Positions 1-48,384 of a stretch of 64,000 bases of DNA are shown here, one piece after another. This DNA comes from Deltaproteobacteria bacterium. Its GTDB lineage: Bacteria; Myxococcota_A; UBA9042; DTJE01. The notes under the pieces were generated by a model. The model was not told where the DNA came from. It worked only from the letters and a program-made list of their open reading frames with translations, and made no database searches. Each line of letters starts with the position of its first letter. The first letter of the stretch is position 1. A program made the position numbers and the translations under genes. Location of the stretch: contig JAKPOP010000032.1 in the NCBI GenBank assembly GCA_029547805.1, positions 1 to 64,000 on the forward strand. The letters run 5' to 3'.

Positions 1-361
1 CCCGTGGGGGAACGAGACGGCGACGTGCGAGAGGGCGGTGATGTGGGACGGGAGCGGGGTGGGATGCGATGTTCGTAAGGGGACGTGGCCGGTCTGCTCG
101 AGACCTGGAGGGAACACGGAACAGGGGTTGTGCGACATGGCCGGCAACGTGTGGGAGTGGGTGCAGGACTGGTACCAAGATTCGTATCAGGGGGCCCCGA
201 CGGACGGGCGTGCGTGGGAGGACCTTTCCCGCACGCCGGTGGACCGGGGCGGCTCGTGGGACAGCGATTCCTTGAGGCTTCGGGCGTCGAACCGCAACAG
301 GGACCTCCCGGGCATCTTCCTCGACTCCCTGGGCTTTCGTCTTTCGAGGTCGGTTCCCTGA
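1..361 (+). CDS. Formylglycine-enzyme-fold (SUMF1/FGE-sulfatase) protein, 3' part only; likely DGR variable protein
   Basis: The reading frame is open from base 2 and has no start in the window, so only about 119 C-terminal residues are present. Seen: the family hallmarks GLCDMAGNVWEW, DRGGSW and a terminal LGFRLSR. These are the core of the FGE/C-type-lectin-like fold shared by formylglycine-generating enzymes, ergothioneine EgtB-type proteins and the variable proteins of diversity-generating retroelements. The last 33 codons (245-343) match the layout of a DGR variable region rather than of a catalytic FGE, and the run ends 18 bases before the stop. Inferred role: ligand-binding display protein whose binding face is diversified, rather than a sulfatase maturase. 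The N-terminal domains lie outside the window. Confidence 0.75.
   Translation, partial: PWGNETATCERAVMWDGSGVGCDVRKGTWPVCSRPGGNTEQGLCDMAGNVWEWVQDWYQDSYQGAPTDGRAWEDLSRTPVDRGGSWDSDSLRLRASNRNRDLPGIFLDSLGFRLSRSVP
245..343 (+). other. Candidate DGR variable region (VR) in the FGE-fold gene
   Basis: After GGSW the protein has a fixed-length tail with conserved LR, NRNR, P and LGFR anchors, separated by residues D,S,D (260-268), D,L (302-307) and I,F,L,D,S (314-328). In DGR template repeats these places are typically Asn AAC codons. Here the codons are gac, agc, gat, gac, ctc, atc, ttc, ctc, gac, tcc: all but one end in C and differ from AAC at one or both A positions (the ttc position may be templated differently). 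That is the footprint of adenine-directed mutagenesis. The template comparison is from memory of the family; no template repeat is visible in the window. Confidence 0.6.
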
Positions 362-417
362 CCCTTTGCTCTTTGCCCGTTTGACCCTTTGGGGCTGGCT
401 GCCCCGGGAGGGAGGCA

Positions 418-663: not shown

Positions 664-1030
664 ATGGCCGGTACCCGAATCTGCCCGCAATGCAAACAGC
701 GCATGGAGGCGACCCGCTGTCCGAAGTGCCGGATCCCGTGCTGCGGACCGTTCGTGGGCCGGCGTGTACGACCTGGGCGGCAATGTGCGCGATTGGGTGT
801 CGGTTCCCTATGGGGCCTATCCCGGGGGCCGTGTGATCGAGGGGATCGAAGGCCGCGTGAATCGGGGCGGCAGTTACCGGATGAACGCCGAACAGTTCGC
901 CACGTCCCGGACGCGCAATGCAGACGAGGACGGCGAGCGCCAGCCGGACCTGGGGTTCCGCTGTGCGGTCGATCTGCATTCGCCCGACGACCCCTCTGGA
1001 GGAGGTCCGGTTCAATCCACGGCACCGTAA
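664..1030 (+). pseudogene. Relic: zinc-ribbon N-terminus joined out of frame to an FGE-fold C-terminus
   Basis: From ATG 664 the first frame gives MAGTRICPQCKQRM followed by a second CPKC, a four-Cys zinc ribbon. From about 760 a different frame (+1) carries GVYDLGGNVRDW, NRGGSY and DLGFRC, the C-terminal half of an FGE-fold domain, ending at 1030. An intact gene would need some 150-250 residues between them, so an internal deletion plus frame change is the simplest reading. The tail of this copy (TSRTRNADEDGERQ) lacks the DGR-type pattern of the copy at 245-343. It could instead be two unrelated fragments; both motifs are clear, their linkage is inferred. Confidence 0.5.
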
Positions 1031-1238: not shown

Positions 1239-1784
1239 TCATCCGGCGGGGGCCTGGGGCAGCGGCAGGTAGCCGATGTAGGGCAGGTTGCGGTAGCGCT
1301 GCTCGTAGTCCAGGCCGTAGCCCACCACGAACCGGTTCTCGATCGTGAACCCCACATAGTCCAGGGGAACCTCCCGGAGGGTGTTCGAGGGCTTGTGGAG
1401 CAGGGTGCAGATCCGCAGGCTCCGGGGCCGGCGCGCCAGCAGGTTCTCCCGCAGGAAGGCCAGCGTCAGGCCGGTGTCCACGATGTCCTCGACCACCAGC
1501 ACGTCCTGGTCCACGATGGGCCGGGAGAGGTCCTGGGTGATCCGCACGACCCCGCTGGACTCGGTGGCATCGCCGTAGGATGAGAGGCCCAGGAAGTCCA
1601 TCGCCAGGGGCAGGTCGATCCGCCGGACCAGGTCCGTCAGGAAGAAGATCGCCCCCTTCAGCACCCCGACCACCACCAGGTCCCGACCCTGGAAGTCCTG
1701 CGTGATCTGTCGGCCCATCTCGGCGATCCGGGCCTGGATCCGGTCCTCGGGAATCAGCATCTGGAAACGATCCGCCCCCTCCAT
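1239..1784 (-). CDS. hpt: Hypoxanthine phosphoribosyltransferase
   Basis: Salvage enzyme converting hypoxanthine/guanine plus PRPP to IMP/GMP in the cytoplasm. The 181-residue protein has the PRPP-binding motif VVEDIVDTGLT, an upstream VGVLKGAIFF loop and a C-terminal FVVGYGLDY segment typical of bacterial HPRT; length is normal. The start is ATG 1784 behind gggaggagg. It is the last gene of a pgi-upp-hpt operon and begins 35 bases after upp ends, so purine and pyrimidine salvage are co-expressed. Nothing in the residues looks damaged. Confidence 0.93.
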   Translation of the reverse strand: MEGADRFQMLIPEDRIQARIAEMGRQITQDFQGRDLVVVGVLKGAIFFLTDLVRRIDLPLAMDFLGLSSYGDATESSGVVRITQDLSRPIVDQDVLVVEDIVDTGLTLAFLRENLLARRPRSLRICTLLHKPSNTLREVPLDYVGFTIENRFVVGYGLDYEQRYRNLPYIGYLPLPQAPAG

Positions 1785-1819
1785 GGTCCTCCTCCCTGTG
1801 GTGGTGATCCGCCGGCCGT

Positions 1820-2596
1820 CTATCGGACCGCGTTGTTGAGCACCTCGCCGAGCCCCCCGGCCCCCGGGATGATGTAGTCGTGGTCGTCCAGTCCCCGCTC
1901 CTGGTCCCAGGCCTCTCCCGGCGCCAGGGCCAGCACCGCCGGCGGTGACAGGCCGCGGTCCACCCGCAGGGCATAGACCTGGAGTTCCGGGCACTCCCGG
2001 GTCACCTGCCGGAGGAACTCGGGGGTCACGATCAGGTTCAGGCTGACCCAGCCCCGGGGCGTGCCCTCACCATGCTCCCGGTACCAGCGGACCACCTCGG
2101 TCAAGGAGGACCCGGTGGCCCCCATGGGGTCCGGGAAGAGCAGGAACTTGCCCTCGATGGGGCCGCCGATCTTGCTGCCGGAGATGGCCGCGCCGGTCAC
2201 GGCCCCCCGGGCATCGGTGGTCCGGTTCATCACGATGTGGTCCTGCCGGACCCCCGTCGGGTCCAGGACCGTCGAGAGGAGTTCAAAGCACACCAGGGAG
2301 GGCTTGATGCCTGCCCGGGCGATGTCCACCGTGACGACCTCCGTGTGCGGGTCCAGCAGGTCCGCCCGGTACTCGGCCCCCATCCGGGTCCGGATGGAAC
2401 GCACCTGCTTCGGGAAGAGGTCGTTGATGCAGGCCCGGAGCAGGGCCTCGTAGAGGGACTGGAGCAGCCAGTTGAGGCGCGGCTGCATGGTCTGGGGCTG
2501 GCACAGTTCGGCCAGCAGGGTCCGGCAGTAGGGGTCGTCCAGGATGTGGACCCGGGGCCCGTAGCGGTGGTCGATCTCCCGCAGGTAGCCGTTCAT
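1820..2596 (-). CDS. upp: Uracil phosphoribosyltransferase (long form)
   Basis: Predicted to convert uracil plus PRPP to UMP. The UPRT-type phosphate-binding loop FPDPMGATGSSL and the C-terminal YIIPGAGGLGE (uracil-contacting segment) are present. The protein is 258 residues, about 50 longer than typical bacterial Upp; the extra length is in the N-terminal and central parts. The ATG overlaps the pgi stop in an ATGA, indicating translational coupling. A divergent UPRT-family member with another base specificity cannot be excluded. Confidence 0.8.
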   Translation of the reverse strand: MNGYLREIDHRYGPRVHILDDPYCRTLLAELCQPQTMQPRLNWLLQSLYEALLRACINDLFPKQVRSIRTRMGAEYRADLLDPHTEVVTVDIARAGIKPSLVCFELLSTVLDPTGVRQDHIVMNRTTDARGAVTGAAISGSKIGGPIEGKFLLFPDPMGATGSSLTEVVRWYREHGEGTPRGWVSLNLIVTPEFLRQVTRECPELQVYALRVDRGLSPPAVLALAPGEAWDQERGLDDHDYIIPGAGGLGEVLNNAVR

Positions 2597-3906
2597 GCCT
2601 CCTCCTCGCCCAGGATGGCCCGGGCCCGCCGGCCAAGGTCCTCCATGCCCGGGCGCCCCAGCAGGCCGTGGGCGAAGCGCTTGCCCGCCTCGACGCCCGG
2701 CTGGTCGAAGGGGTCGATGCCCAGCAGGTAGCCTGCCAGCGCCGTCTCCACCTCGAAGTGGGCGAAGAGGGCCCCCAGGGCCTCCTCGTCCAGGGTCGGG
2801 ACGTGGATCCGGGCCACGGGCCGACCGGCCTCGATGAGACCCGCCATCGTCCCGGACCGGAGGGCCTCGAAGACCTCGAAGACGTCCCGTCCCGCGAACT
2901 CCTTCAGGTCCGGGTCCAGGTCCGAGAGGTCCGGGACCTTCAGGGAGGGCCTGGGACCGCCGACCGTGAGGAAGGTCAGGTGCTTGTCCGGGGCCCCCTC
3001 CATGAAGAGCTGGAGCAGGGAGTGCTGGTCCGTGCTCCCGATGGCCCGGACCGGCTGCTGCCCCAGCGCCCCGTCGCCCCGGGGCTTGCCCAGGGACTCG
3101 CCCCAGAGCTGGCAGAACCAGTCGCCGAAGGAGGCGAGCCGGTCGCAGTAGGCCCAGATCACCCGGGCGTGGGACCCGCCGAGCATGTGGGCGACCTGGG
3201 TCCGGGCGGCCTGGACCGACGGGTGATCGAGGTCCCGGCCCTCCAGTTGCCGGAACACCTGGTCCGCCCCCGCCAGCAGGCGCCGCAGGTCATGGCCGGC
3301 GGCCCGGATCGGGAAGGTCCCCACGGGGGTCAGCACGCTGAAGCGTCCCCCGACCTTTGGCGGCACCGGCAGCGTGGGACAGCCCAGGGCCCGGGCGACC
3401 CGCCGGAGGGCGCCCCGGTCGGGGTCCGTCGTGATCACGATGCCCTCCCGGAGCCCCGCCGGGCCCGCCTCCCGTCGGATCCGGTCCGCGAAGAGGGCGA
3501 ACTGCGTCAGTGTCTCGACCGTGGTTCCCGACTTGGTCACGGGGTTCAGCAGGGTGTCCGCCGGGTCGAACCAGTCCATCGCCGCGGCCACCGAGACCGG
3601 GTCCAGGTTGGACAGGATCCGGACCTCCCGGGCATCCGGTGCGGCATGGACGGGGCGCAGGGCCTCCAGGGCCGCCTGGGCCCCCAGGCCCGACCCGCCG
3701 ATGCCCAGCACCAGCACCTTGCGGAACCGGGCCGGCAGTCCCCGGACCAGGTCCTCGACCTCCGTCGGGTCCGACCGGCCGCATCCCAGGAAGGCCGCCG
3801 GGCCTTCTGCGTCCCGGACCAGGCGATCCAGGGCTGCCCGGACCTCCGATTCCGGGATCGGCCTCGGGGTCCGGGCGTCGGGGGTGAATCGGAACGGCAG
3901 ATTCAT
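2593..3906 (-). CDS. pgi: Glucose-6-phosphate isomerase
   Basis: Interconverts glucose-6-phosphate and fructose-6-phosphate in glycolysis/gluconeogenesis. Motifs in order: GIGGSGLGAQ sugar-phosphate loop, NPVTKSGTT, the GESLGK stretch and the STDQHSLLQ catalytic-His region. At 437 residues it is in the range of the short thermophile/Gram-positive-like bacterial enzymes, not the 550-residue E. coli type. The start at ATG 3906 (MNLPFRF) is preferred over in-frame upstream codons because the predicted promoter ends at 3957. First gene of the pgi-upp-hpt operon, divergent from hup. Confidence 0.93.
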   Translation of the reverse strand: MNLPFRFTPDARTPRPIPESEVRAALDRLVRDAEGPAAFLGCGRSDPTEVEDLVRGLPARFRKVLVLGIGGSGLGAQAALEALRPVHAAPDAREVRILSNLDPVSVAAAMDWFDPADTLLNPVTKSGTTVETLTQFALFADRIRREAGPAGLREGIVITTDPDRGALRRVARALGCPTLPVPPKVGGRFSVLTPVGTFPIRAAGHDLRRLLAGADQVFRQLEGRDLDHPSVQAARTQVAHMLGGSHARVIWAYCDRLASFGDWFCQLWGESLGKPRGDGALGQQPVRAIGSTDQHSLLQLFMEGAPDKHLTFLTVGGPRPSLKVPDLSDLDPDLKEFAGRDVFEVFEALRSGTMAGLIEAGRPVARIHVPTLDEEALGALFAHFEVETALAGYLLGIDPFDQPGVEAGKRFAHGLLGRPGMEDLGRRARAILGEEEA

Positions 3907-3956
3907 GGCATCCTCGCGCTGCGGAGAAGGGACGGGACTCAAGCCGCCCGGTCCAT

Positions 3957-3985
3957 CCCATACCAGAGAAGGCCGACGGTGACAA
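3957..3985 (-). promoter_or_regulatory. Sigma-70-like promoter for pgi-upp-hpt
   Basis: Reading the reverse strand: -35 TTGTCA (3985-3980), 17-bp spacer, -10 TATGGG (3962-3957). The -35 box sits one base away from the -35 box of the divergent hup promoter. Confidence 0.5.
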
Positions 3986-3986
3986 C

Positions 3987-4014
3987 TTGACGGACCGCTC
4001 GATTCGTTTATCAT
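3987..4014 (+). promoter_or_regulatory. Sigma-70-like promoter for hup
   Basis: -35 TTGACG (3987-3992), 16-bp spacer, -10 TATCAT (4009-4014); the predicted start of transcription is about 25 bases before the hup ATG. Back-to-back with the pgi promoter. Confidence 0.6.
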
Positions 4015-4046
4015 CCCTTTCGCTTGAGGCCCCTGGGAGGGATTCC

Positions 4047-4328
4047 ATGACGAAATCGGACCTGATCGAGGCGGTGGCGAAGCGGACCGGAATCTCCCTG
4101 GATCGGGCGGCGGTGGTCGTCAACGCGATCTTCGACCAGATGGTGGACGCCCTGAAGCGGGGCGAGCGGATCGAGATCCGGAACTTCGGCAACTTCATCG
4201 TGAAGGAGTACGACGGCTACGAGGGCCGGAACCCCAAGACCGGCGAGAAGGTCGTCGTGCCCCCGAAGCGCCTGCCCTTCTTCAAGGTGGGCCTCGGCCT
4301 GCGCCAGCGGCTCAACGGCGAGGCGTAG
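4047..4328 (+). CDS. hup: HU/IHF-family DNA-binding protein
   Basis: Nucleoid protein that bends DNA non-specifically, acting as a dimer. The 93-residue sequence begins MTKSDLIEAVAKRTG, and carries the GNF turn and the DNA-intercalating arm GRNPKTGEKV with its Pro. Length and arm match HU; an IHF subunit is possible but no IHF-specific feature is seen. The start is ATG 4047 with tgggaggga upstream. It has its own promoter and converges on coaE, the two reading frames overlapping by 17 bases at their 3' ends. Confidence 0.93.
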   Translation: MTKSDLIEAVAKRTGISLDRAAVVVNAIFDQMVDALKRGERIEIRNFGNFIVKEYDGYEGRNPKTGEKVVVPPKRLPFFKVGLGLRQRLNGEA

Positions 4329-4980
4329 TCCCCCTCCCCGGATCCCGGTCTCCCGGGACCGTCTCCGACAGCAGTTCCAGGGCCAGGCGGCGGGCCTCGG
4401 CCAGCAGCGCCTGGAGCAGTCCGTCGTTGCGAAGGATCGAATCGGCGTGGGGGATCCGGGCCTCGTCTGGAAACTGGGCCGCCATTCGGGCCTGGACCTC
4501 CTGGGCAGAAAGGCCGTCCCGGCGGCAGACCCTGGCGATGCGCTGGTCCTCCGGGGCGGTCACCACCACGGTCCGGTCCACCGCCCGGTGCAGGCCCGTC
4601 TCGATCAGCAGGGCGGCCTCGATCACCGCCAGGGGGCAGCCGCTTCGGGCCAGCTGATGGAGGCGTCGGGAGACCTCCTGGATCACCAGGGGGTGCAGCC
4701 GATCCTCCAGGACGCGCCGGAGGTCGGGGTCCTGGAACACCGCGGCGGCCACCGCCCGACGGTCGATGCGCCCGTCGGGCCCCAGCACGTCGGGCCCCAG
4801 CACGTCCCGGAAGGCCTCGACGGCCGGTCCCCCGGGTTCCGACTGGCGGCGGGCCACGGCATCGGCGTCGATGACCGGGATGCCCAGCGAACGCCAGCAG
4901 GCCGCCACCGCGCTCTTGCCTGATCCGATGCCGCCGGTGAGGCCGACCAGGCGCAACTGGGCGGGGCGTTCGATCCGCAT
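4312..4980 (-). CDS. coaE: Dephospho-CoA kinase
   Basis: Last step of coenzyme A synthesis: phosphorylation of dephospho-CoA at the 3' hydroxyl. The P-loop GGIGSGKS lies at residues 15-22, followed by the DADAVAR substrate motif and the lid helix region RxxxQ. Length (222) is normal. ATG 4980 is chosen because P-loop spacing fits and a TACAAT-like -10 box (4992-4987) lies only 7 bases upstream, which would make a very short leader or leaderless mRNA. A 15-bp tandem duplication inside the gene yields a repeated VLGPD. The 3' end overlaps hup. Confidence 0.92.
   Translation of the reverse strand: MRIERPAQLRLVGLTGGIGSGKSAVAACWRSLGIPVIDADAVARRQSEPGGPAVEAFRDVLGPDVLGPDGRIDRRAVAAAVFQDPDLRRVLEDRLHPLVIQEVSRRLHQLARSGCPLAVIEAALLIETGLHRAVDRTVVVTAPEDQRIARVCRRDGLSAQEVQARMAAQFPDEARIPHADSILRNDGLLQALLAEARRLALELLSETVPGDRDPGRGTTPRR
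4774..4803. repeat. 15-bp perfect tandem duplication within coaE
   Basis: The unit gtcgggccccagcac occurs twice in a row (4774-4788, 4789-4803), in frame, adding five residues (VLGPD twice) in a surface loop region of coaE. Confidence 0.9.
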
Positions 4981-5026
4981 GGGGCCATTGTAGCAGAAGG
5001 GGCGGCCCCTCCCGGACCCTGCCCCA

Positions 5027-5055
5027 TTGACAGCGGTGGGCCCCCGGAATAAACG
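5027..5055 (+). promoter_or_regulatory. Sigma-70-like promoter for the ABC/Gld operon
   Basis: -35 TTGACA (5027-5032), 17-bp spacer, -10 TAAACG (5050-5055). It lies 72 bases before the first gene of a four-gene operon running to 11,078. Confidence 0.55.
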
Positions 5056-5127
5056 GACGCCCGCACGGGTTTGCAGGCCGGCCGGGTCCGCCGGGAGGGC
5101 CGGGGGATCGGAAGCGGAGGGAGGACC

Positions 5128-6066
5128 ATGATCGAGATCCGGAATCTGGTGAAGGACTACGGGCCCATTCGGGCACTCAATGGGGTCTCCTTCACGGTGG
5201 AGAAGGGGGAGGTGGTGGGTTTCCTGGGACCCAACGGCGCCGGGAAGACCACCTGCATGAAGATCCTGACGGGCTTCATCGCTGCCTCCTCCGGCACGGT
5301 CACCGTGGCCGGGATGGACGTGGTGACCCACGGGCTCGAAGTGCGCCGCCGCATCGGCTACCTGCCGGAAAACGCCCCTCTCTACACCGACATGACGCCT
5401 CGGGAATACCTCTCCTTCCTGGGCAGCATCCGGGGCATTTCCCACCAGGAACTCCCGGATCGGATCCAGCGGGTGGCCCTTCGGGTGGGGATCGTCCCGG
5501 TGATGGACCAGGAGATCGGGACCCTGTCGAAGGGATACCGCCAGCGGGTCGGGCTCGCCCAGGCGATGATCCACGACCCGGACATCCTGGTGCTGGATGA
5601 GCCCACCTCGGGCCTGGACCCCAACCAGATCGTGGAGATCCGGGAGGTGATCCGGGACCTGGGCCAGGACCGGACCGTGATCCTGTCCACCCACAACCTG
5701 CCCGAGGTCACGGCCACCTGCAACCGGATCGTGCTGATCCACAAGGGGCAGGTCCGGGCCGACGGCACTCCGGATGCCATCACGGCCCGCCATGGCGGCG
5801 GCAACACCTACCGCCTGGAAATCCAGGTTCCTGAGGGGAGCCCGGACCCTCGGCTGGCGCTCGGGAGCCATCCCGAGGTGGCCGAGGTGACCCCCCTGGA
5901 GGTCCCCGGGGCGACGGGCCGGGTCTTCCGGGTGGCTGCGAAGGGGGAGGAAGACCTGCGTCCCTCCCTGTTCCGCTGGAGCGTCGAGGCGGGGTGGACC
6001 CTGCTGGAGTCCCGGCGGGAGCGCCTGGACCTGGAGGCGATCTTCCAGCGGTTGACCCTGTCCTGA
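5128..6066 (+). CDS. ABC transporter ATP-binding protein (GldA-like)
   Basis: ATPase subunit of an ABC-2-type exporter. Seen: Walker A GPNGAGKT at residues 34-41, signature LSKGYRQR, Walker B ILVLDEP and the switch His in STHNLPE; a regulatory-looking C-terminal domain follows from about residue 220. Total 312 residues, usual for the GldA/drug-exporter subfamily. The start at ATG 5128 has cggagggagg in front. It is the first gene of an operon with a permease, a GldG-like protein and a DUF4340 protein, the arrangement of the so-called gliding-motility auxiliary ABC system. In non-gliding bacteria this system has no settled substrate. Confidence 0.9.
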   Translation: MIEIRNLVKDYGPIRALNGVSFTVEKGEVVGFLGPNGAGKTTCMKILTGFIAASSGTVTVAGMDVVTHGLEVRRRIGYLPENAPLYTDMTPREYLSFLGSIRGISHQELPDRIQRVALRVGIVPVMDQEIGTLSKGYRQRVGLAQAMIHDPDILVLDEPTSGLDPNQIVEIREVIRDLGQDRTVILSTHNLPEVTATCNRIVLIHKGQVRADGTPDAITARHGGGNTYRLEIQVPEGSPDPRLALGSHPEVAEVTPLEVPGATGRVFRVAAKGEEDLRPSLFRWSVEAGWTLLESRRERLDLEAIFQRLTLS

Positions 6067-6094
6067 TGGGACTTCGAGACCAGGAGGCCGAACC

Positions 6095-6832
6095 ATGCGC
6101 AACGTGATCTCCCTGGCCAGGCGCGAGATCCTGGCCTACTTCGGGTCCCCGGTGGCCTACATCGCCATCGCGGTGTTCCTGCTGCTGCTGGGGGTCGTCT
6201 TCTTCTTCCGGATCCCCTTCCTGCTGCCCAAGGAGGACTTCTTCGAGGCCCGGGAGGCGACCCTGCGGCCCCTCTTCGAGTGGATGGTCTTCCTGTTCAC
6301 GATCATCCTGCCGGCGATCTCGATGCGCCTGCTGGCCGAGGAGCGGAAACTGGGGACCCTGGAACTGCTGCTGACGCTGCCCCTGACCGAGACCGAGGTG
6401 GTCGTGGGGAAGTTCCTGGGGGCCCTGGGGTTCCTGGGCGTGGCGGCGGCCCTGACGCTGCCCTATCCCCTGCTGGTGCTGGCCCTCGGCAGTCCCGACC
6501 CGGGCCCCCTGGTTGGCGGCTACTTCGGGGTCCTGCTGGTCGGGGCGGCCTATCTGGCCGTGGGCCTCCTGACCTCCGCCTGGACCCAGAGCCAGATCAC
6601 GGCGTTCCTGACCGCCATCGCCCTCTGCGCCGCCCTGACCTTCGTGGACCGGCTCCCGGAGGCGGTGGGCCTGCCGGCCCTGGAGGCCGCCCGCATGATG
6701 TCCTTCCACCATCACTTCCAGTCCATCGCCCGGGGGGTCCTGGACACCCGGGACCTGGTCTTCTTCCTCTCGGTGGTGGTGGGGGCCCTGGCCCTGGCCG
6801 GCCACTCCCTCGAGTCCCGGAAGTGGAAGTAG
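6095..6832 (+). CDS. ABC-2-type permease (GldF-like)
   Basis: Inner-membrane permease partner of the preceding ATPase. The 245-residue protein has about six hydrophobic segments, beginning with YIAIAVFLLLLGVVFFF near residue 25, and the family motif EERKLGTLELLLTLPL in the cytoplasmic loop that couples to the ATPase. The start is ATG 6095 with a weak ribosome binding site; 28 bases separate it from the ATPase gene. Size and topology match GldF. The substrate is unknown. Confidence 0.88.
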   Translation: MRNVISLARREILAYFGSPVAYIAIAVFLLLLGVVFFFRIPFLLPKEDFFEAREATLRPLFEWMVFLFTIILPAISMRLLAEERKLGTLELLLTLPLTETEVVVGKFLGALGFLGVAAALTLPYPLLVLALGSPDPGPLVGGYFGVLLVGAAYLAVGLLTSAWTQSQITAFLTAIALCAALTFVDRLPEAVGLPALEAARMMSFHHHFQSIARGVLDTRDLVFFLSVVVGALALAGHSLESRKWK

Positions 6833-43451: not shown

Positions 43452-44980
<1,529 letters not shown>

Positions 44981-45068
44981 AGGCGAAAGCTTCGGTTTTC
45001 GCCTGGTCGAAACGACGCAAGTCGTTCGCTGTGGTACTTTTCGATCGCACTTCAGAAGTTTCGAAGCT

Positions 45069-45081
45069 GGTTCTTTAACGA
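45069..45081 (+). promoter_or_regulatory. boxA-like element in the 16S-tRNA spacer
   Basis: ggttctttaacga, 57 bases before tRNA-Ile, matches the boxA consensus. Confidence 0.4.
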
Positions 45082-45137
45082 AACAACGCGGTACAAGCAA
45101 CGGCCTGAAGGTGTTGTTTGGACCGGGCAGAGCACTC

Positions 45138-45214
45138 GGGCTCATAGCTCAGTTGGTTAGAGCACGCGCTTGATAAGCGCGGGGTCGATGGTTCAAGTCC
45201 ATCTGGGCCCACCA
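45138..45214 (+). tRNA. tRNA-Ile (anticodon GAU)
   Basis: 77 bases including an encoded CCA (45,212-45,214). The acceptor arm gggctca pairs with tgggccc (one G-U). The anticodon stem cgcgc/gcgcg encloses the loop ttgataa, with GAT at 45,172-45,174, and the T-arm loop is ttcaagt. Located in the usual place in the 16S-23S spacer; no tRNA-Ala partner is present. Confidence 0.97.
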
Positions 45215-45244
45215 TTTATGGTGACTGAGCGGCCGACGCATTTC

Positions 45245-45256
45245 GTTCTTTGACAG
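45245..45256 (+). promoter_or_regulatory. boxA-like element before 23S
   Basis: gttctttgacag, 53 bases before the 23S 5' end. It contains ttgaca but no -10 box follows, so antitermination rather than initiation is favoured. Confidence 0.4.
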
Positions 45257-45308
45257 TATGTGTAGATTCTTTTCGAAGGTAAATTAAACGCCTAATTTTG
45301 ATAGTGGC

Positions 45309-48214
<2,906 letters not shown>

Positions 48215-48264
48215 CCCTGTCAAAGTTCGGGCGTTTAGTTTACCATCGATTTTTTCAGACTTTT

Positions 48265-48378
48265 CTGGTGATAATTGGCGAGGGGAAACACCCGTTCCCA
48301 TCCCGAACACGGCCGTTAAGCCCTCAGCCGCCAATGGTAGTTGGACGTAAGGTTCCGCGAGAGTAGGTTATTGCCAGG
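48265..48378 (+). rRNA. rrf: 5S ribosomal RNA
   Basis: About 114 bases. The terminal stem pairs tctggtgata with the complement tattgccagg, and cccgttcccatcccgaacac is the conserved loop B/C core. Located 50 bases after 23S and followed by a strong terminator. Confidence 0.92.
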
Positions 48379-48384
48379 ATTATA

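Follow-up and report, generated by a model that had tools for sequence, protein, structure and literature searches.

The window analysed here, a stretch of 64,000 nucleotides, starts at the first base of a 68,912-bp contig (C1), and this contig start cuts a gene whose surviving end raises the question of whether it is the target of a DGR and, if so, whether its host still diversifies it. The genome to which the window belongs (G000) comprises 4.08 Mb in 32 contigs and is 96.7% complete, with 70% GC. On the forward strand, the frame at 2–361 holds the C-terminal 119 codons, roughly the last third, of an FGE-sulfatase (C-type-lectin-fold) gene whose 5′ end lies off the contig (Pfam search: PF03781, E = 3.4e−18, profile positions 161–253 of 255), which bears out the sequence-only reading of this DNA as the end of an FGE-fold gene. 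The tail which that reading had described, running from GGSW to LGFR with the codons it quoted and with AGG at 275–277, is present at 248–340 (forward strand, 31 codons, GGSWDSDSLRLRASNRNRDLPGIFLDSLGFR) and has the length and columns of ten template repeats from other genomes, so that an FGE fold is found together with a C-terminal region of the variable type. The tail is followed by LSRSVP and the stop codon (TCGAGGTCGGT, 341–361, forward strand; stop codon at 359–361). This C terminus resembles the 3′ (IMH-type) end of the variable regions of relatives, which finish with TCGAGGTC or GCGAGGTCGGT where template repeats have AGCTC; an RSV C terminus is also present in some tails which carry no target label.

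The sequence-only reading had seen in the length of the tail, and in codons ending in C at its supposedly diversified places, a DGR consensus and the mark of adenine mutagenesis. The 31-residue length does equal that of all ten templates detected in other genomes, but it is shared by 52 of 70 FGE tails not labelled as DGR-type, and because the same spacing (GGSW, 24 residues, GFR) is found in the majority of FGE genes without a known role as DGR targets, the argument from spacing is weak. At the template-N columns (column 14 excluded), NNC codons made up 9/11 in the window tail and 229/253 in DGR-type tails (91% on average), but also 15/22 (68%; separately 8/11 and 7/11) in two ordinary FGE genes of G000, from which the window gene was not distinct. 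The other codons of the window tail end in C in 5 of 12 cases (Fisher's test for the contrast with 9/11: P = 0.09), and the argument from C-ending codons is also weak since such codons are common in a genome of 70% GC. Considering single codons, AGG at 299–301 fits, with AGG at the same column in three templates (L073, L130 and L149). AGG at 275–277 and TTC at 317–319 fit none of the ten; the former had already been flagged as a misfit, and the latter had been counted among the diversified sites, although the aligned column is Arg in 8/10 templates and AAC in 0/10. When the tail was compared with the closest foreign template, no cognate one having been found in the G000 assembly, there were 23 non-adenine and 13 adenine mismatches. 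A leave-one-out score using only the tail (residues and third bases) gave the window +4.3 bits, which is near neutral: almost every DGR-type tail scored higher, and one ordinary FGE gene of G000 scored about the same. Several tail columns which are normally fixed are altered in the window gene. The tail by itself does not decide between a DGR target and an ordinary FGE gene.

An ordinary FGE-sulfatase-domain gene which was never diversified, owing the likeness of its tail to a general C-terminal motif in a GC-rich genome, would agree with this spacing and codon usage, and also with the absence from the G000 assembly of a DGR reverse transcriptase (RT) or template, which is described below. We nevertheless consider this explanation unlikely, given where the gene falls among its relatives and what follows its stop codon. 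A search for homologues of the window gene in 36 genomes, G000 included, gave matches in 35 of them, with 53 in G002 and 33 in G003. The best matches came from other genera of the same family, where the nearest relatives are FGE genes up to 67% identical. In a tree built on the region before the tail (96 columns), the window gene fell within a set of 32 rows (SH-aLRT support 96) containing 14 DGR-type targets and 17 rows without a target label, and the five rows nearest to it were all DGR-type targets. Identity to DGR-type targets in the constant region reached 76% over 83 columns, and homology to verified DGR targets was thereby found outside the variable region.

Many of the PF00078 matches in these relatives were RTs in which the DGR motifs, IGNLTSQ and YMDD, are present. 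Approximately ten of them had a template repeat downstream and an FGE variable region upstream, the two repeats differing mostly at template adenines: 15/17 mismatches at L060 (G002:C114), 13/15 at L074 (G003), 17/18 at L068 (G003) and 14/17 at L065 (G009:C162). Four such template-bearing loci were found in G005 alone. We observed several DGRs per genome in G005 (L067, L073, L077 and L079), G003 (L068 and L074) and G027 (L062 and L069), and the FGE targets at these loci differ at their N-termini, which by eye are caspase-like, kinase-like, subtilase-like or PEGA-like. The family's FGE-type targets (for example G002:C114, L060; G003:C157, L074/L179; G005:C68, L073/L180; G009:C162, L065) resemble the window gene in their FGE core, the best being 67% identical, and in the length and columns of their tails, and many also share the RSV-type C terminus and an array after the stop codon. 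However, an RT and a template repeat lie approximately 1–2.5 kb downstream of these targets, whereas the window gene is followed by hpt on the opposite strand, with no template found.

The array just mentioned consists in the window of four phased units of approximately 8 nt (ACCCTTTG CTCTTTG CCCGTTTG ACCCTTTG; 361–391, forward strand) directly 3′ of the stop codon. Many DGR targets carry three or four such CTT units in steps of approximately 8 nt at the same place, as can be seen by comparing L060 (TAGACTCTTGACTCTTGGGCCCTTGGGCCCTTGG) and L107 (TAACACTTTGCCCTTTAACCCTTTTACCCTTTGCC) with the window (TGACCCTTTGCTCTTTGCCCGTTTGACCCTTTGGGG), and in DGR targets a GC-rich inverted repeat often lies further downstream. 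We labelled tails as DGR-type or other independently of the array; for about half of the 23 DGR-type tails the label was verified with a template from their own genome (at most 6 non-adenine mismatches), and for the remainder it came from weaker template matches or from the pattern of the tail. The strict four-unit array, which was spotted post hoc in an alignment containing the window, is present in the window and followed 8/23 DGR-type tails, 0/70 other FGE tails (P = 5e−6) and 0/10 template repeats. In a looser three-unit form the counts were 12/23, 2/70 and 0/10, and both of the array-bearing tails among the 70 look like variable regions. The same is true of the array-bearing tails at L132 and L154, and the template-verified targets L062 and L079, which are outside the 23, also carry the array. 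Within the 4.08 Mb of G000 a three-unit CTTT pattern occurs only once, at 364–382. It should be noted that over all loci read 15 of 57 four-unit arrays followed such tails, and that the array alone is not specific. Counting a looser pattern (CTTG...) across whole genomes of relatives was uninformative, as the counts did not exceed those of a reversed-pattern control in most genomes and showed a large general excess in G002.

Because the gene nests in the tree near DGR-type rows and bears the post-stop array shared with many targets, we regard it as related to DGR targets; judged by sequence, it appears to have both an IMH-type 3′ end and the downstream target-site element, with an array phased like those of relatives. 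By descent, the window gene is thus likely to be a DGR target. This agrees with the sequence-only reading as to the kind of gene, although the support comes mainly from homology to verified targets and from the array, evidence which that reading did not use.

Two inverted repeats were seen downstream: a short GC-rich one directly 3′ of the array (GGGGC-TGGCT-GCCCC, 391–405, forward strand), which we dismissed as standalone evidence because it is too short, and a long GC-rich one with 27-nt arms that are 78% complementary (473–529). When folded as DNA, 340–540 did not stand out from what its composition predicts (z = −1.65). In the Bordetella phage BPP-1, recognition of the target depends on a hairpin shortly 3′ of the variable region (PMC3240598). 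There, the IMH is followed by a hairpin/cruciform located 4 bp after the variable region, whereas in the window the inverted repeat lies approximately 30 nt after the stop codon and is preceded by the phased CTT array. By analogy, the array may be a differently built counterpart, in chromosomal FGE-type DGRs, of the BPP-1 hairpin. We found no description of such an array in the limited part of the literature that was covered. We tentatively propose, as a plausible idea which falls short of being probable, that a cis element so far undescribed, common to chromosomal FGE-type targets from several phyla, helps to mark the target for retrohoming. It would consist of three or four phased CYTTK units of approximately 8 nt immediately 3′ of the stop codon; in many cases a GC-rich inverted repeat would come next, and template repeats would lack the element. 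The window would hold an intact copy of it on an orphan target.

We searched G000 for the machinery which would diversify the gene. Using PF00078 and a profile built from five DGR RT sequences, no DGR-type RT was found in this 96.7% complete assembly, and no RT gene adjoins the window FGE gene. The genome contains one RT only, which the five-sequence profile also matched, and no other gene. It lies in an open frame of 921 codons at 404 kb of contig C25. Its fusion to an AEP-TOTE primase domain and its position beside a CRISPR array led us to reject it as a DGR RT and to assign it to the CRISPR type. That array, of at least 16 repeats with a period of approximately 73 nt, sits directly before the RT/AEP-TOTE primase gene (L001, G000:C25:402889–406500). 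A template repeat was not found in the G000 assembly with positions 209–390 as the query, with a query in which the tail was reverted to AAC codons, or with a degenerate GGSWNNN pattern. A match of 31–36 bp (G000:C14:6157–6192) was rejected as a template fragment, being antisense within a rhodanese-type gene. Of a complete DGR, neither the RT nor the template repeat was therefore found in G000, the assembly of which is incomplete. The same-genus genome G001 had no close copy of the window gene and no second RT; its one RT match lies in an open frame of 841 codons, similar in length to the CRISPR-type frame of 921 codons. Both genomes of the window's genus seem to be without DGRs.

The neighbourhood of the gene shows how it may have arrived. 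G001 is 88% identical to the window over 1244–6546 and departs from it exactly at the end of hpt, a hypoxanthine phosphoribosyltransferase-type gene (1239–1784, reverse strand) which forms a conserved flank, with 97% identity in G001. Positions 1–1243, absent from G001, form the edge of an insertion at this synteny break. The genes which come next in G001 are found on another contig of G000 (C20) from approximately position 565, after 560 bp at the contig start. By eye, positions 1–560 of this contig (L216) contain remnants resembling an MNT/HEPN (nucleotidyltransferase/HEPN toxin-antitoxin) pair. On the window side of the insertion, a decayed second gene (664–1030, forward strand) has a zinc-ribbon start in one frame and a C-terminal FGE piece (approximately 761–967) in another; in the tree, this piece is not close to the DGR-target clade. 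Its arrangement is that of a decayed copy of the zinc-ribbon/FGE layout seen in the DGR-type target of L107.

Since synteny with G001 is lost at 1244, within 1.2 kb of the contig end, and since the genes nearest to the window gene are in other genera, a chimeric or contaminating join could have placed a gene from another organism of the sample at the contig start. We think this very improbable: the GC content of 1–2000 (69%) matches that of the contig, and at the corresponding junction the start of C20 has an insert edge of its own, 560 bp long, which suggests a real insertion. Read most simply, G000 carries an insertion of which the middle is unassembled and one edge holds the FGE gene. Elsewhere in the window, at 43452–48379, there is a complete rRNA operon (16S, tRNA, 23S and 5S) of lower GC; rRNA operons are a common site of chimeric joins in metagenome contigs.

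The assembly thus breaks within the island which holds the FGE gene, the other edge being the start of C20, and this gap could hold the RT and template, should there be any. The gene could then be an active target served remotely, from the unassembled island or from an unbinned contig, which would be a sub-case of target descent. Consistent with this, the contig ends inside the gene itself, the 3′ end and array of the gene are intact, and breaks of the same kind recur in the DGR-bearing genome G002, where contigs C114, C135, C159 and C205 start or end within FGE target genes, and many similar target copies seem to break the assembly. There is also a precedent in Thiohalocapsa PB-PSB1, in which targets at incomplete DGR loci were reported to be diversified in nature (PMC10907252). 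Like the window gene, these are C-type-lectin-fold targets without a complete element adjacent. However, population diversification was seen there at every such locus except one (PMC10907252), whereas at the window gene diversification is conjectural and no DGR RT was found in the assembly. With machinery missing from a nearly complete genome, only one RT match of CRISPR-type frame length in G001, gene remnants next door and changes in normally fixed tail columns, we judge remote activity to be possible but rather doubtful. The claim of the sequence-only reading of a DGR at present acting on this gene in the organism is accordingly unsupported in the assembly. Taken as a whole, the observation of that reading is partly confirmed and its interpretation partly supported. 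Of the two findings which it said would refute it, the absence of an RT and a template repeat applies to the assembly, which is broken within the island that carries the gene.

An orphan target is the most likely state of the gene, and machinery in the unassembled island acting on it is less likely; we lean this way because the machinery is absent from a near-complete genome, the neighbours have decayed and some fixed tail columns have changed. In the relatives, the RT copies the template repeat but introduces random errors where the template has adenine, and the resulting cDNA replaces the C-terminal variable region of the FGE-fold protein, presumably changing the ligands which the diversified protein binds. 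The window copy would have arrived with an accessory island lying between hpt and a metallo-beta-lactamase-fold gene, the probable extent of the island. It keeps the marks of a target site, namely a tail of the variable-region type, the 3′ end and, with a putative role in targeting, the array downstream. The retroelement would then have been lost or left behind, leaving a presumably inactive orphan beside gene remnants.

Some uncultivated relatives in this family have several DGRs each, together with dozens of FGE-domain matches. DGRs are found through their RT and template, and targets which are distant or have been left behind are hard to see. If the proposed cis element is real, the target gene alone would suffice to recognise orphan or remote targets, with no need for a reverse transcriptase, and the array signature would point to a sequence requirement for retrohoming beyond that of phage BPP-1.
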